This document shows, one piece after another, positions 19,268-24,338 of a DNA stretch of 52,875 nt. Every line of letters starts with the position of its first letter. The first letter of the stretch is position 1. This DNA comes from Thiotrichales bacterium (GTDB lineage Bacteria > Pseudomonadota > Gammaproteobacteria > Thiomicrospirales > Thiomicrospiraceae): assembly GCA_016936535.1 (NCBI GenBank), contig JAFGXP010000031.1:1-52875 (forward strand), in the 5' to 3' direction. The notes beneath the pieces are model-generated. The model was not told the origin of the DNA. It searched no databases and worked only from the letters and a program-made list of their open reading frames with translations. The translations under genes were made by a program, and so were the position numbers.

Positions 19268-20782
19268 ATGGCAATGATGCCCGGCTTACAGTTGCATATC
19301 GGCCAACAACTCAAGCTCACTCCTCAGCTGCAACAATCTATCAAAATTTTGCAGTACTCCGCGCTAGAAGTTCAACAAACCATTGAGGCCATGCTGGAAA
19401 ACAACTTCATGCTGGAAGTGGATGAAGAAGAAGGCAACGAGCCCGAAAAAAACCTCGCCAATGAAAGCACAGAGGAAGAAGCGGCCTATGCGGAATCTCG
19501 TGATCTCGATGAACAACCTCTCGAGATGAACGCAAATGACAGCTTAGAAAGTGATCTAAGCTTTGACATGGAATGGGAGGAGGTCTTTGCAGACCACGCA
19601 TTGACCAGCAGTAGCCACAGCGATACCAGCGAATATCAGGCGGCGGAAACTTACACTAGCAACGAACTCAGTCTGCACGACCATCTTCAATGGCAACTTG
19701 ATACCGCCAGTATGGATTCCCCCATGCATCTTCTGGCTTCATACCTAATTGATGACATTAATGATGAAGGCTATCTCAGTACGCCTCTGCCCGAGCTCTT
19801 ACTCACAATTAATGCGCACGAATCTCAAGCGGATGGCAGCCAATTTACGCTCGCCGCATTAGAAGCAGCTCTAGCACGCGTGCAACAGTTTGAGCCAAAT
19901 GGGGTTGGCGCACGCACGGTGCAAGAAAGCTTATTGCTGCAATTGGCGGTCATGCCACAGACTCCGTATGTGGTCACCGCTCGCCAATTAATTCGCGAAA
20001 ACTTCGATTGGCTGAGTTTTCATGACCACAAACGGATTAAAAAGGTTTATGGACTCGATGACGAAGAATTGAATCGTTTATTGCGGCTGATTCAAACCCT
20101 CAACCCAAGGCCGGGTCGAGCGTTTTCATCAACGCAGTCGGAAATCGTTATTCCAGACTTACGCTTGCGTAGAGTCAAAAATGGCTGGCTGGTTGAACTC
20201 AATCAGGATGCCTTTCCGCGTCTGAGCGTGAACAGTACTTACCTTAAACTGGCCAATTCGCTTGAAGATTCTGAACAAAATCGGCAGATTAAAGATCAAG
20301 TTAACGAAGCCAAAGGTTTAATCAAAAGCATACAAAGCCGAGGCGAAACCCTGCTCAAGGTCGGACGCTTTATTGTAGAACGGCAACAGGCTTTCTTTGA
20401 AGAAGGTGAGATGGCGATGAAACCTTTAGTTTTACGCGAAGTGGCCGAGTATTTGGATCTGCATGAATCCACTATTTCACGCGCTACAAACCAAAAATAT
20501 ATGCAAACGCCGCGTGGAACCTTTGAGTTGAAATATTTCTTTTCCACTGCGGTCAGCCAATATGGTAGCGATGATCAATCGGCAACTGCGATCAAGGCCT
20601 ACATCAAACAACTCATCGAACAAGAAGACCCAAAAAAACCGCTCAGTGACAGCAAGCTTATGAGTCTTTTGGAGGCGCAACACGATATTTCCGTTGCCAG
20701 ACGAACCATTGCCAAATATCGCGAAGCGTTGAATATCGCCGCGTCGAGCGAACGCAAACAATTCAACTCATACAAACGCTAA
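19268..20782 (+). CDS. rpoN: RNA polymerase sigma-54 factor
   Basis: RpoN directs RNA polymerase to -24/-12 promoters and needs enhancer-binding ATPases. The 504-residue protein is slightly longer than E. coli RpoN (477). Region I is the glutamine-rich LKLTPQLQQSIKILQYSAL; region II is long and acidic (about residues 50-130); the core-binding domain follows; the C-terminal DNA-binding part contains LHESTISRATNQKYMQTPRG and the RpoN box VARRTIAKYREALNI. AGGA precedes the ATG. Neither lptB upstream nor hpf/ptsN downstream is present, unlike the common proteobacterial cluster; an unrelated bicupin gene follows. Confidence 0.97.
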   Translation: MAMMPGLQLHIGQQLKLTPQLQQSIKILQYSALEVQQTIEAMLENNFMLEVDEEEGNEPEKNLANESTEEEAAYAESRDLDEQPLEMNANDSLESDLSFDMEWEEVFADHALTSSSHSDTSEYQAAETYTSNELSLHDHLQWQLDTASMDSPMHLLASYLIDDINDEGYLSTPLPELLLTINAHESQADGSQFTLAALEAALARVQQFEPNGVGARTVQESLLLQLAVMPQTPYVVTARQLIRENFDWLSFHDHKRIKKVYGLDDEELNRLLRLIQTLNPRPGRAFSSTQSEIVIPDLRLRRVKNGWLVELNQDAFPRLSVNSTYLKLANSLEDSEQNRQIKDQVNEAKGLIKSIQSRGETLLKVGRFIVERQQAFFEEGEMAMKPLVLREVAEYLDLHESTISRATNQKYMQTPRGTFELKYFFSTAVSQYGSDDQSATAIKAYIKQLIEQEDPKKPLSDSKLMSLLEAQHDISVARRTIAKYREALNIAASSERKQFNSYKR

Positions 20783-20914: not shown

Positions 20915-21844
20915 ATGCAACCTAATCTGGTACAAGAGATTCAGCAAGCCGCTCAACAAAAATGGGAACGCCACGCTGAGGTTAAAGAGTATATGTCTGC
21001 CGTTAACCCGCCAATGCCCAAAATTGATGTGGTTCACTATCCCAGCGCTTTACATCAATCGGGCGAAAGTCGAGTGATTCGTTTTGACCAATCTGAAAAA
21101 CTTCAAACGCCTTATCCAGCCACTACCCCTAACCTGCTAGCTAATTATCTGCGCATTTGTGCTGGGGATACGCTTAAAACCGAGGTAAACGCCAGTTCGC
21201 AAATGTTTTATGTCATTCGCGGTCAAGGCAGAACCCAAATGCGCCACGGTACCCTGGAATGGAAAGAAGGCGATTTGTTCACTCTGCCTGCTGTTCCCGA
21301 TGCGTTGCACAGTGCCGATAGCGACACCGCTATTTATTGGGTACACGATGCGCCCGTGCTCGATTACCTTGGTGCAAAAGCAGACAAAGAGCGTTTTGAA
21401 CCCGTGCTCTATACCAAAGAGCGTTTAAATAAAGAGCTTGCTGATGTGCGTAAAATTGCTGAAGGGCGTAACCGCACAGGCATTTTGCTTGCTAACCCAA
21501 ACTTTCCACTGACGATGACCCTGACCCATACCTTATGGGCTTTGTACAATGTGTTGCCTGCGGGTGTCACACAAAAACCTCATCGCCATAATTCGATTGC
21601 GGTTGACTTTGTCGTCGCTTCTGGCCCAGAAACCTATACCCTAATTGGTAAGGAACTCAATCCGGACGGCTCAATCAAAGACCCAATTAAAGCACTTTGG
21701 ACACCAGGTTCTGTCTTCATTACCCCTCCAGGCTGGTGGCATTCACACCACAACGATTCGGGTGAAGATGCGATTGTTCTGCCGATTCAGGATGCTGGCT
21801 TAATCATGAATATGCAGCTACTGGACTTTCAACACGTCAAATAA
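20915..21844 (+). CDS. Bicupin protein related to gentisate 1,2-dioxygenases
   Basis: A 309-residue protein with two cupin domains. The start (ATG at 20915) has AGAGGA eight bases upstream. The N-terminal cupin (about 80-145) includes MFYVIRGQGRTQMRHG and EGDLFTLPAVPDALHS. The C-terminal cupin (about 205-290) has PAGVTQKPHRHNS and TPGSVFITPPGWWHSHH, so a metal could be held by His223, His225 and a histidine near 276-279. In gentisate and salicylate dioxygenases the iron is in the N-terminal cupin, which here lacks the HxH pair. A ring-cleavage role is therefore doubtful. It appears to be a single-gene unit with its own terminator. Confidence 0.75.
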   Translation: MQPNLVQEIQQAAQQKWERHAEVKEYMSAVNPPMPKIDVVHYPSALHQSGESRVIRFDQSEKLQTPYPATTPNLLANYLRICAGDTLKTEVNASSQMFYVIRGQGRTQMRHGTLEWKEGDLFTLPAVPDALHSADSDTAIYWVHDAPVLDYLGAKADKERFEPVLYTKERLNKELADVRKIAEGRNRTGILLANPNFPLTMTLTHTLWALYNVLPAGVTQKPHRHNSIAVDFVVASGPETYTLIGKELNPDGSIKDPIKALWTPGSVFITPPGWWHSHHNDSGEDAIVLPIQDAGLIMNMQLLDFQHVK

Positions 21845-21853
21845 ATTAGCCAT

Positions 21854-21888
21854 AATGCGCTGAAAACGCCCTTTGTTTTCGGCGCATT
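21854..21888 (+). terminator. Strong intrinsic terminator after the bicupin gene
   Basis: A 14-bp stem (21854-21867 with 21875-21888, one G-T wobble) with a 7-base loop, followed by TTATTT, begins ten bases after the stop codon. Confidence 0.9.
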
Positions 21889-21981
21889 TTATTTGAGCGC
21901 TTTGCCCGAATCAGGTGTAAAGCCCTCCATTTGGAAAGACGCTTTAAAAGCCGGCCTCCGTCTCTGCAAAAGGACCTATCT

Positions 21982-22698
21982 ATGCTCAACACGGATTATC
22001 GCATCGCCATTATTGAAGACGACCCAATTCAGTTACAAACCCTGGTTACTGCCCTCCAACAGCAAGGGTTTGTGGTACAAGCTTTTGCCGATCGAATCAG
22101 CGCAGAACAAGCCTTTGCCAAACAACTGCCCGACTTGGTCATTTCTGACATCATTTTGGGTTCAGAAATGGATGGCGGCTTTGATTTGGCCAAACATTTA
22201 TTGGGCTACAACCAACCGATTCCGATTATTTTTCTTTCCGAACGTCAATCCGAATTTGATATCTATACCGGCCATGCCCTCGGAGCAATCGATTACCTTC
22301 CCAAGCCGATTAGTCTGAATGTTTTGATTGTCAAAGTTAAAAATCTTCTGCGTATTACCAGCTCAAATAAAAGCGAGCTCAATGACGAAGAGCGCTCGAA
22401 AATCCAAGATTTGGAATTGGTCGCAGAGCAATTCAAAGCCTATTGGCACGGCAAGGCCTTAAGCCTAACGGCGACTGAGTTTGAAATGCTCAAGCAGTTC
22501 GCAACGGCTGGCGAAGGGGCTGTGGTGACCTACGATGCTTTACAGAAATCGACTCAAGGGGTAGTTGAACGCAACACCATCAACACCCATATTTGTCGGA
22601 TTCGTAACGCCTTCAAAAAAATTACGCCCGATTTTAACTTAATTCATAACGAGTATGGACGAGGCTATTCTTGGCAAACGTTACCCGATCAAGATTGA
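21982..22698 (+). CDS. OmpR-type response regulator, dedicated sortase-system type
   Basis: A 238-residue two-domain regulator. The receiver (1-125) starts IAIIEDDPIQ, has the phosphoacceptor Asp56 in DLVISDIILG, and the conserved lysine (Lys108) in DYLPKPIS. The winged-helix effector (about 155-235) includes LSLTATEFEMLKQF and NTINTHICRIRNAFKKI and ends EYGRGYSWQ. Around the active site the sequence MDGGFDLAKHL and FLSERQSEFD recalls the regulators of proteobacterial dedicated sortase systems; that assignment rests on memory of the family. AAAGGA precedes the ATG. The partner kinase follows after 80 bases. No sortase or sortase substrate is visible in the window. Confidence 0.82.
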   Translation: MLNTDYRIAIIEDDPIQLQTLVTALQQQGFVVQAFADRISAEQAFAKQLPDLVISDIILGSEMDGGFDLAKHLLGYNQPIPIIFLSERQSEFDIYTGHALGAIDYLPKPISLNVLIVKVKNLLRITSSNKSELNDEERSKIQDLELVAEQFKAYWHGKALSLTATEFEMLKQFATAGEGAVVTYDALQKSTQGVVERNTINTHICRIRNAFKKITPDFNLIHNEYGRGYSWQTLPDQD

Positions 22699-22778: not shown

Positions 22779-24338
22779 ATGTTTCTGATTCCGAAAGGCA
22801 GCTGGCGCTTATCCATTCGCGCCAGACTGTTTATTTTGCTGCTGATCTTAACCATTCTGCCTTTTCTTGCTTACCGCTTTGCGATTGACCTTCATCGTAT
22901 TTTGCTCAATAACCAAGCCATTGTGCAGCAGCAAACCGTTGAAAACCTAGCATTAATTCTCGAAAACCGTACCGATCTTTGGGCACTGCAGATACAATCG
23001 GGCATGCCAACTCGTCTGAGTCACTTGAACTTAAATAATTCGGTTTTATGGGTGGTCAATGAACTCGGACAAACCACTTATGTCGTGGGTAAGTTGCCGC
23101 CTCTAGCCGACCCAAGTGCCGAAGGCTTTTTTGTCGCAATCGGTAAGCTCCTGATCAAAACATTTGCCACCTTTCTGCCCTACTCTCTGCCTTATCCTTA
23201 CCCACAGAGTCCGCAGCCAGAAATTACCCTTATTCAACACTCATTGAACGGCCAAACACTTCAGCAATATCGCATGGATGCCTCGCGTAACCCAGTTTCG
23301 TTGATGTCTGCCACACCGCTAATGGTACAGAATCGTATTATTGGCTCATTGGTGTTGGAGCAACGAATGGAAACCCTCTTTAGCGAAAGTCTCGATTATT
23401 TTTATCGTTTAATCGGCATTGCGGCAACGCTATTTTTTATTGTCATGGTTGGCGCGATTGTTCATACCGCTTCCCTTTCCAATCGGATTATTCGCTTGGA
23501 TGAAGATGTGAAAAAGACTTTTGACCTAAAAGGCCGTTTAACCCAACTGGACTTTCCGGATCAACGCAATCGGATGTACCAAGATGAGCTGTCAGATTTA
23601 CGACATCATATCTACGAAATGCTCAAACAATTAGGCGCTTATGAACGCTACCTAAAACAGCTGCCTAAAACGCTGCGCCATGAGTTGCACAATCCATTGA
23701 ATCGATTGTCGATGGCCCTCACCCTTCTCGAAAAAGAAACGCAAAATCAACAGCTTATTTATGCACAGCATGCCGTTGTTCAGCTCAAACAAATCATCGC
23801 CTCACTTTCAGAAGCCACCAGTATTGAAGACAGCCTGCAAAGTCAACAGCCCGAATCCTTTCCTATCGGCTTGATGTTGCGCCACTACATTGAAAACATT
23901 GTGCTCCTTCACCCTGAATATCAGATAGAGTCACACCTGCATATCGATGAGCAGACTCAGGTACTCGGGGATGGTTTTATGATTGAGCAGATGATGGACA
24001 AACTGCTCTCAAATGCGAATGATTTTACCGATCGGCAAATGCCAATTCAGATTCGGGCGCAACGGATTGGCAATGTGCTTGAGTTAAGCGTCGAAAACAG
24101 CGGACCTCTGCTGCCGTCTGGGCATGAACGACAAATTTTTGATGGCATGACTTCGATGCGTGCCATTAATCAAGATCAACAGGCGCATCTTGGACTCGGT
24201 CTTTATATTGTCAAATTGATTGTCGATTTTCATCGTGGCAAGGTACACGCTGAAAACAGTCAATTTGATTATCGGGGCAAGCGTTTGCAAGGCGTTAGCT
24301 TTAAAATTCGCCTGCCAATTGAGCGTATTGAACGCTAA
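22779..24338 (+). CDS. Sensor histidine kinase, dedicated sortase-system type
   Basis: A 519-residue inner-membrane kinase. Membrane helix 1 spans about 15-33, a periplasmic domain about 35-205, and helix 2 about 211-230, followed by a HAMP-like linker. The phosphoacceptor is His301 in LRHELHNPLNRL. The N box is in EQMMDKLLSNANDFT, the G2 box is LGLGLYIVKLIVDFHRG. The N-terminus (RLSIRARLFILLLILTILPF) and LSEATSIEDSL resemble kinases of proteobacterial dedicated sortase systems. A TAG five bases upstream in frame makes this ATG the first possible start, although the binding site is weak. It pairs with the regulator upstream. Confidence 0.85.
   Translation: MFLIPKGSWRLSIRARLFILLLILTILPFLAYRFAIDLHRILLNNQAIVQQQTVENLALILENRTDLWALQIQSGMPTRLSHLNLNNSVLWVVNELGQTTYVVGKLPPLADPSAEGFFVAIGKLLIKTFATFLPYSLPYPYPQSPQPEITLIQHSLNGQTLQQYRMDASRNPVSLMSATPLMVQNRIIGSLVLEQRMETLFSESLDYFYRLIGIAATLFFIVMVGAIVHTASLSNRIIRLDEDVKKTFDLKGRLTQLDFPDQRNRMYQDELSDLRHHIYEMLKQLGAYERYLKQLPKTLRHELHNPLNRLSMALTLLEKETQNQQLIYAQHAVVQLKQIIASLSEATSIEDSLQSQQPESFPIGLMLRHYIENIVLLHPEYQIESHLHIDEQTQVLGDGFMIEQMMDKLLSNANDFTDRQMPIQIRAQRIGNVLELSVENSGPLLPSGHERQIFDGMTSMRAINQDQQAHLGLGLYIVKLIVDFHRGKVHAENSQFDYRGKRLQGVSFKIRLPIERIER

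Follow-up and report, generated by a model that had tools for sequence, protein, structure and literature searches.

Gentisate 1,2-dioxygenase (GDO; TIGR02272) and the salicylate 1,2-dioxygenase of P. salicylatoxidans (SDO; PDB 2phd and 3nl1) are the closest described systems to the protein reported here. In SDO, His119, His121, and His160 are described as the iron ligands and His162 as a second-sphere residue (PMC4019311, PMC11264262), and a metal-free second cupin is reported for both SDO and the E. coli GDO (PMC10306065). Arg83, Gln108, Arg127, His162, Trp172, and Asp174 are called strictly conserved in GDOs, and substitution of either Arg83 or Arg127 reportedly leaves SDO inactive; the part played by Arg127 as a proton shuttle in GDO/SDO catalysis is presented in the same source as a matter of debate (PMC11264262).

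The gene examined here lies in a stretch of 52,875 nucleotides from a Thiotrichales bacterium (the window; contig JAFGXP010000031.1). The features relevant to the analysis are as follows.

19268-20782, upstream of the bicupin gene: rpoN, named from sequence.
20915..21844, + strand: bicupin gene, 309 aa, GDO-like, predicted Fe(II) dioxygenase family; ATG at 20915, stop codon ending at 21844.
21125..21373, + strand: N-terminal cupin, approximately residues 71-153; no metal motif; best match, the GDO/SDO C-terminal cupin.
21308..21310, + strand: H132, the invariant histidine of the N-terminal cupin; SDO His162 column.
21458..21814, + strand: C-terminal cupin, approximately residues 182-300; predicted metal site; best match, the iron-bearing GDO/SDO N-terminal cupin.
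21473..21475, + strand: R187; SDO Arg83 column (substrate carboxylate); invariant in 33/33.
21581..21589, + strand: H223-R224-H225; predicted metal ligands; columns of SDO His119 and His121.
21605..21607, + strand: D231; SDO Arg127 column; Asp in 33/33 of the family, Arg in 14/14 GDO/SDO-like comparators.
21740..21754, + strand: H276 (SDO His160 column, third predicted ligand), H278 (SDO His162 column), H279, and N280, placed by alignment.
21854..21888, + strand: terminator-like hairpin of 15 pairs with a T-rich tail, directly 3′ of the bicupin gene.
21976-22698, downstream of the bicupin gene: response regulator; best NCBIfam model TIGR03787, below cut-off.
22779-24338, downstream of the response regulator: histidine kinase; best NCBIfam model TIGR03785, below cut-off.

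A purine-rich stretch resembling a ribosome-binding site directly precedes the bicupin ATG. The 3′ hairpin is a consensus match only, the scan giving one site against a mean of 2.9 in shuffles of that stretch. The best models for the two downstream regulators describe a proteobacterial dedicated sortase system pair (183.9 bits versus a cut-off of 335.7 for the response regulator and 263.3 versus 612.2 for the histidine kinase).

The encoded protein is a member of the cupin superfamily. Cupin_2 (PF07883) matches two stretches, the better of them (residues 213-290, E 4e-10) scoring 39.6 bits against a gathering score of 27.2, and the cupin-type family AraC_binding matches residues 98-144 (E 8e-5). 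At E up to 1, just two NCBIfam models match: MabB, the 5-aminosalicylate 1,2-dioxygenase (NF049978), at 65.7 bits (below its cut-off of 650), and GDO (TIGR02272) at 53.6 bits (far below 442.1). The best PDB sequence matches are also SDO/GDO (E 1.6e-11). None of the PHROGs families was matched, and the bicupin had one match in its own genome at E 0.001. An AlphaFold2 model (pLDDT 87.4) returned GDO 3bu7 as its first-ranked Foldseek match, with oxalate decarboxylases close behind by E value, and in VIA-align the SDO/GDO entries scored Z 24.3 to 25.2 (rmsd 2.8 to 5.4, 246 to 283 residues), the next-ranked entry outside that group reaching Z 19.9. Both measures give the predicted model a GDO/SDO-type bicupin fold; the alignment with SDO (4fbf) was collinear (Z 25.2, rmsd 5.4, 283 residues), and that with GDO 2d40 gave Z 24.8 (rmsd 2.8, 246 residues). 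Sequence and model together make the bicupin a relative of the gentisate/salicylate 1,2-dioxygenases, probably one whose catalytic cupin is C-terminal and whose substrate is neither gentisate nor salicylate.

The original prediction placed a metal motif in the C-terminal cupin only, naming HRH at 223-225 and further histidines near 276-279. These residues are present as described, and H223, H225, H276, H278, H279, and N280 are invariant in 33/33 aligned homologues, a conservation that puts the motif far beyond chance. The protein has histidines at positions 20, 41, 47, 111, 132, 144, 205, 223, 225, 276, 278, 279, and 307, and its sole complete metal motif is that of the C-terminal cupin (H223, H225, and H276, plus H278), the three-His set being complete in all 33 homologues. 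PDB alignments equate H223, H225, H276, and H278 with SDO His119, His121, His160, and His162, from which we infer that H223, H225, and H276 bind Fe(II). The companion claim, that the N-terminal cupin lacks HxH and keeps a single histidine, is right about the motif but not about the count: this cupin has three histidines (111, 132, and 144), and H132 alone among them is invariant (33/33). H132 falls in the second-sphere His162 column, outside the metal-ligand columns, and His occupies that column in 10/14 GDO/SDO-like C-terminal cupins as well. None of the three ligand columns holds a His in the N half of the window protein; among the 11 family members aligned here (of 33), His occurs in the first ligand column in one and in the other two columns in none. 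On this sequence evidence, the bicupin family lacks the three-His iron site in the N-terminal cupin that characterizes GDO. Two members, L034 and L089, have an HTH triplet in the N-terminal cupin, offset by two residues from the usual first ligand columns; it may be there by chance or may be left over from a second metal site.

A metal confined to the C-terminal cupin is no oddity by itself, since homogentisate dioxygenase and KduI are tabulated with the same arrangement (PMC2684688), the active site of the former being placed in the C-terminal cupin also in PMC4019311. The notable feature is rather the crossing of roles, the C-terminal cupin of the bicupin being closer in sequence to the N-terminal cupin of GDO.

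The crosswise resemblance of the two halves to GDO is seen in several sequence comparisons. In the PDB matches to SDO, bicupin residues 71-153 align with SDO 276-358 and residues 170-285 with SDO 66-169, and family and PDB matches agree in aligning the N half to the GDO C part and the C half to the GDO N part. With hhalign, the crossed pairings of halves scored 83.0 (N half versus GDO C) and 86.9 (C half versus GDO N), compared with 43.9 (N versus N) and 55.2 (C versus C) for the collinear ones. Between whole proteins the best single alignment was collinear (score 85.9, 230 columns), followed by two crossed alignments (84.5 over 99 columns and 81.7 over 117) that together exceed it. The crossed sum was higher than the collinear sum in 458/462 protein pairs, and in 448/462 with the metal motifs masked, the pairs not being independent of each other. 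In six further members, the best stretch was crossed in 11/12 rows for TIGR02272 and NF049978, the exception being L084 with NF049978.

Two histories could account for this pattern. Either the bicupin is circularly permuted with respect to GDO, or the domain order never changed and a two-metal ancestor gave rise to GDO, which kept the N-terminal site, and to the bicupin family, which kept the C-terminal one, so that the crosswise resemblance would come from site-linked sequence retained in common by one pair of halves and lost in common by the other. The latter concerns history alone and is compatible with the function proposed below. The description of an S. pomeroyi GDO with iron in both cupins (PMC10306065) lends it credibility, as does the collinear whole-protein structural alignment over 283 residues, although such a fit would be expected under both histories because the two barrels are pseudo-symmetric. 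The crossed similarity, however, survives masking of the metal motifs (83.0 and 56.4 for the crossed halves versus 40.4 and 45.8 for the collinear ones), and the bicupin N half shares off-site features with the GDO C half, namely, the W..(G/R)D.F..P and D.P....L stretches. The model of the C half by itself does not discriminate between the GDO N- and C-terminal cupins, fitting both similarly well (Z 11.1 to 2phd_D, from residue 50, and Z 10.8 to 2d40_B 205-334).

Domain trees favor the crossed grouping weakly. They were built from 11 of the 33 family members, 5 deeper homologues, and 14 GDO-like loci, the last being those left of 19 tried after L051, L103, and L104 gave no ORF by the motif rule and L048 and L050 proved to be duplicates; of the 12 scored against TIGR02272, 8 lie above its cut-off and 4 below it, and the other two, L049 and L052, came from the search of the class sample. 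In the maximum-likelihood tree with the four metal-site columns masked, the crossed split had support of 97/87, and neither the collinear (p-AU 0.127) nor the independent-duplication arrangement (p-AU 0.345) was rejected. The preference was lost in a second tree without the pocket columns and without the long rows (six rows of L076, L049, and L100 omitted), where the crossed split fell to 65/0, nothing was resolved, and the p-AU values were 0.49 (collinear) and 0.497 (independent duplication), a result that speaks for reciprocal site loss. On balance, we regard circular permutation as the somewhat likelier history, with reciprocal loss a serious but lesser possibility.

Within the C-terminal cupin, R187, W208, N212, H223, H225, D231, H276, and H278 are invariant in 33/33. 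Two of the six GDO pocket residues are kept (Arg83 as R187 and His162 as H278, 33/33 each), and the other four are changed and fixed in all 33 (Gln108 to N212, Arg127 to D231, Trp172 to V288, and Asp174 to P290). The Arg127 column of the alignment reads Arg in 14/14 GDO/SDO-like sequences and Asp in 11/11 family rows, with 4 Thr and 1 Asp among the deeper homologues; D231 itself sits past what we take to be the usual Glu position of the cupin motif. At the same position, distant relatives have Asp in L078-L080 (L079 and L080 judged by eye) and Thr in L075/L045 and L084. Four deeper homologues (L076, L083, L084, and L045) share the cupin order and have Thr in the Arg127 column, and in the first three an equivalent of R187 is not evident by eye; these proteins possibly act on other substrates.

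The fixed replacement of Arg by Asp suggests that the substrate, or its protonation state, differs from a hydroxybenzoate. Neither gentisate nor salicylate should be the substrate, because the Arg that favors deprotonation in SDO is replaced by an invariant Asp and the contacts to the gentisate 5-OH are changed. We envisage that a (hetero)aromatic or enediol-like substrate would chelate Fe(II) in bidentate fashion, held by R187 closing over it, and that O2 would bind beside it, with cleavage of the ring or of a C-C bond as in GDO/SDO. By analogy with the GDO/SDO model, H278 would serve as the acid-base group, and an amino or ring-NH group of the substrate might, at a guess, lie opposite D231.

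It is improbable that the protein is instead a diverged but true gentisate/salicylate-type dioxygenase of ring degradation. The family resemblance to GDO and MabB would fit such a role, as would the catabolic-looking genes near some distant homologues (28-47% identity), which include an FAA-hydrolase domain protein near L078 (28.5 bits, cut-off 23.9), an NtaA/DmoA-type monooxygenase (L079), ABC/TTT transporters, and a class II aldolase; the same surroundings would suit an enzyme that helps to break down some small organic molecule. Against it stand the pocket changes fixed in 33/33 and the apparent lack of the downstream GDO pathway (maleylpyruvate isomerase and fumarylpyruvate hydrolase) in the window genome. 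FAA-hydrolase PF01557 had no match there at E 0.001 (the genome is 97.54% complete, so that a missing stretch is possible) versus a match in 11/14 control genomes, and the MaiA model (TIGR01262) reached just 51.1 bits against a cut-off of 171.05. The conclusion of the original prediction, that this is unlikely to be a standard GDO, is thus borne out by the TIGR02272 score, the altered pocket, and the genome without an FAA-hydrolase match.

An equally improbable reading is that of a non-oxidative bicupin with its metal in the C-terminal cupin, similar to ureidoglycine aminohydrolase or KduI. Ureidoglycine aminohydrolase (AllE/YlbA) has a Mn site, with metal only in the C-terminal cupin. KduI, as stated above, is also listed with metal there alone (PMC2684688), and VIA-align gave Z 18.9 to 4e2q (rmsd 3.2, 220 residues) and 17.5 to KduI 7e4s. 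These values are, however, approximately 5 to 8 below those for GDO/SDO, neither family model appeared among the NCBIfam matches at E up to 1, and the combination of three His, a second His, and R187 is the GDO/SDO pattern.

The bicupin was found in 51/62 genomes of the window's taxonomic family (43/50 of those of good quality; E 1e-40), a group known for chemolithoautotrophs, and in 39/74 genomes (21/36 of good quality) of a family that seems to be Mariprofundaceae. In a sample of the class, 13/274 genomes had a match at E 1e-3, 8 spanning most of the length and 5 short ones inside longer GDO-type frames. Among named relatives, Thiomicrorhabdus comes closest (86%, 83%, and 85% identity in the best segment), and other named matches, many of them to MAGs, include Gallionella, Sulfuriferula, Hydrogenovibrio, a Synechococcales MAG, Verrucomicrobiales, Planctomycetota, and Thioploca. 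Overall, the family is patchily spread through sulfur and iron oxidizers, Planctomycetota, and Verrucomicrobiota. Among 72,556 plasmid records, 7 matched, the annotated copies being named merely "cupin domain-containing protein" or "hypothetical protein." On one of them, the Komagataeibacter xylinus plasmid pB, the family member (L111, 8950-9888) shows 47.8% identity; an IS630 transposase lies approximately 2 kb upstream of it and genes for the molybdenum cofactor follow it, a setting that hints at mobility. A Neorhizobium plasmid (L113, 7884-9759) carries a distant homologue (28.2%) followed 1 bp on by a gene annotated as a nucleoside hydrolase, with an ABC transporter, a class II aldolase, and an LLM flavin oxidoreductase in the surroundings.

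The gene had been seen as a single-gene unit beside rpoN that offers no pathway clue. The lack of a pathway clue stands: rpoN recurs only in the Thiomicrospira group among the loci compared, where rpoN, the bicupin, the response regulator, and the histidine kinase are adjacent (neighbor clusters in 17, 18, and 15 loci). A conserved operon was rejected because the neighbors differ by lineage. In the seeming Mariprofundaceae, a PurT-like gene, recognized from N-terminal residues, lies nearby in 5/7 loci (L085-L088 and L092, but not L089 or L090), and L034 shares a neighbor cluster with the Campylobacterota locus L025, where Pfam gives ATP-grasp, with PurT_C just under cut-off. A purine link was considered too thin, resting on PurT, on an Amidohydro_1 protein near L078 (read as guanine-deaminase-like), and on the nucleoside hydrolase beside L113. 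In the other lineages compared, no partner gene recurred besides the one in Planctomycetota, where 3/4 of the loci so titled (L027, L031, and L032) have homologous FAD-oxidase genes upstream of the bicupin (cluster C13; L032 checked directly, L027 and L031 assigned by homology cluster). L032 (2225-5930) has this protoporphyrinogen-oxidase-type gene upstream of the bicupin and a uroporphyrinogen decarboxylase as well. An accessory role in heme biosynthesis, which this neighbor might suggest given that the L032 copy is a protoporphyrinogen oxidase (304.4 bits versus a cut-off of 97.85) and that HemN is convergent to the bicupin in L019, is the least credible of the alternatives, the pattern not being seen in other lineages compared and HemJ-family and HemF matches over cut-off covering those steps in the window genome.

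We return, then, to a GDO/SDO relative acting on some other substrate. The bicupins make up a coherent dioxygenase-like family, with approximately 45-87% identity to the window protein, that extends across several phyla and in which no characterized member was found. In the literature covered (subscription papers lying mostly outside its scope), we recognized no account of a permuted or reversed-cupin bicupin dioxygenase or of the present family. Physiologically, these proteins probably turn over a small molecule, internal or scavenged, and do not serve growth on aromatics. More speculatively, and with considerable doubt about the whole combination, the family may be a permuted offshoot of the GDO superfamily with an undescribed reaction of its own, one that uses R187, D231, and H278 over a three-His Fe(II) to cleave a nitrogen-bearing (hetero)aromatic, as a clean-up or salvage step spread by transfer outside ring-degradation operons. 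The presence of the gene in most genomes of its taxonomic family, together with the failure to find the usual gentisate pathway partners in the one genome searched, points to an unrecognized metabolite. A natural family working with Asp instead of Arg127 would also offer a test of the Arg proton-shuttle question.

Compared with SDO/GDO (2phd, 3nl1; 3bu7, 2d40), the bicupin has the same fold in the predicted model, with one putative three-His metal cupin and one predicted to be metal-free, and keeps the equivalents of Arg83 and His162; it differs in that its predicted catalytic cupin is the C-terminal one and its halves are alike crosswise, with 14-20% identity in structural alignment. MabB (NF049978) is its top NCBIfam match, although the score is far below 650 and the halves again match crosswise. 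Homogentisate 1,2-dioxygenase is a ring-cleaving bicupin whose active site, like the one predicted here, is C-terminal (PMC4019311), but its ligands are a 2-His-1-carboxylate set, whereas the aligned ligands of the bicupin are three histidines, and it is absent from the Pfam/NCBIfam matches at E up to 1. The 5-nitrosalicylate 1,2-dioxygenase (8ch4) is a relative of the GDO N-terminal cupin in which Arg127 is replaced, as here, and the substrate differs (PMC10306065). It ranked first in VIA-align, tied with several others, when the C half was modelled by itself (Z 11.7, rmsd 3.8, 123 residues); unlike the bicupin, it is a monocupin, with Tyr in place of Asp in the Arg127 column and Trp in that of His162, where the bicupin has His.
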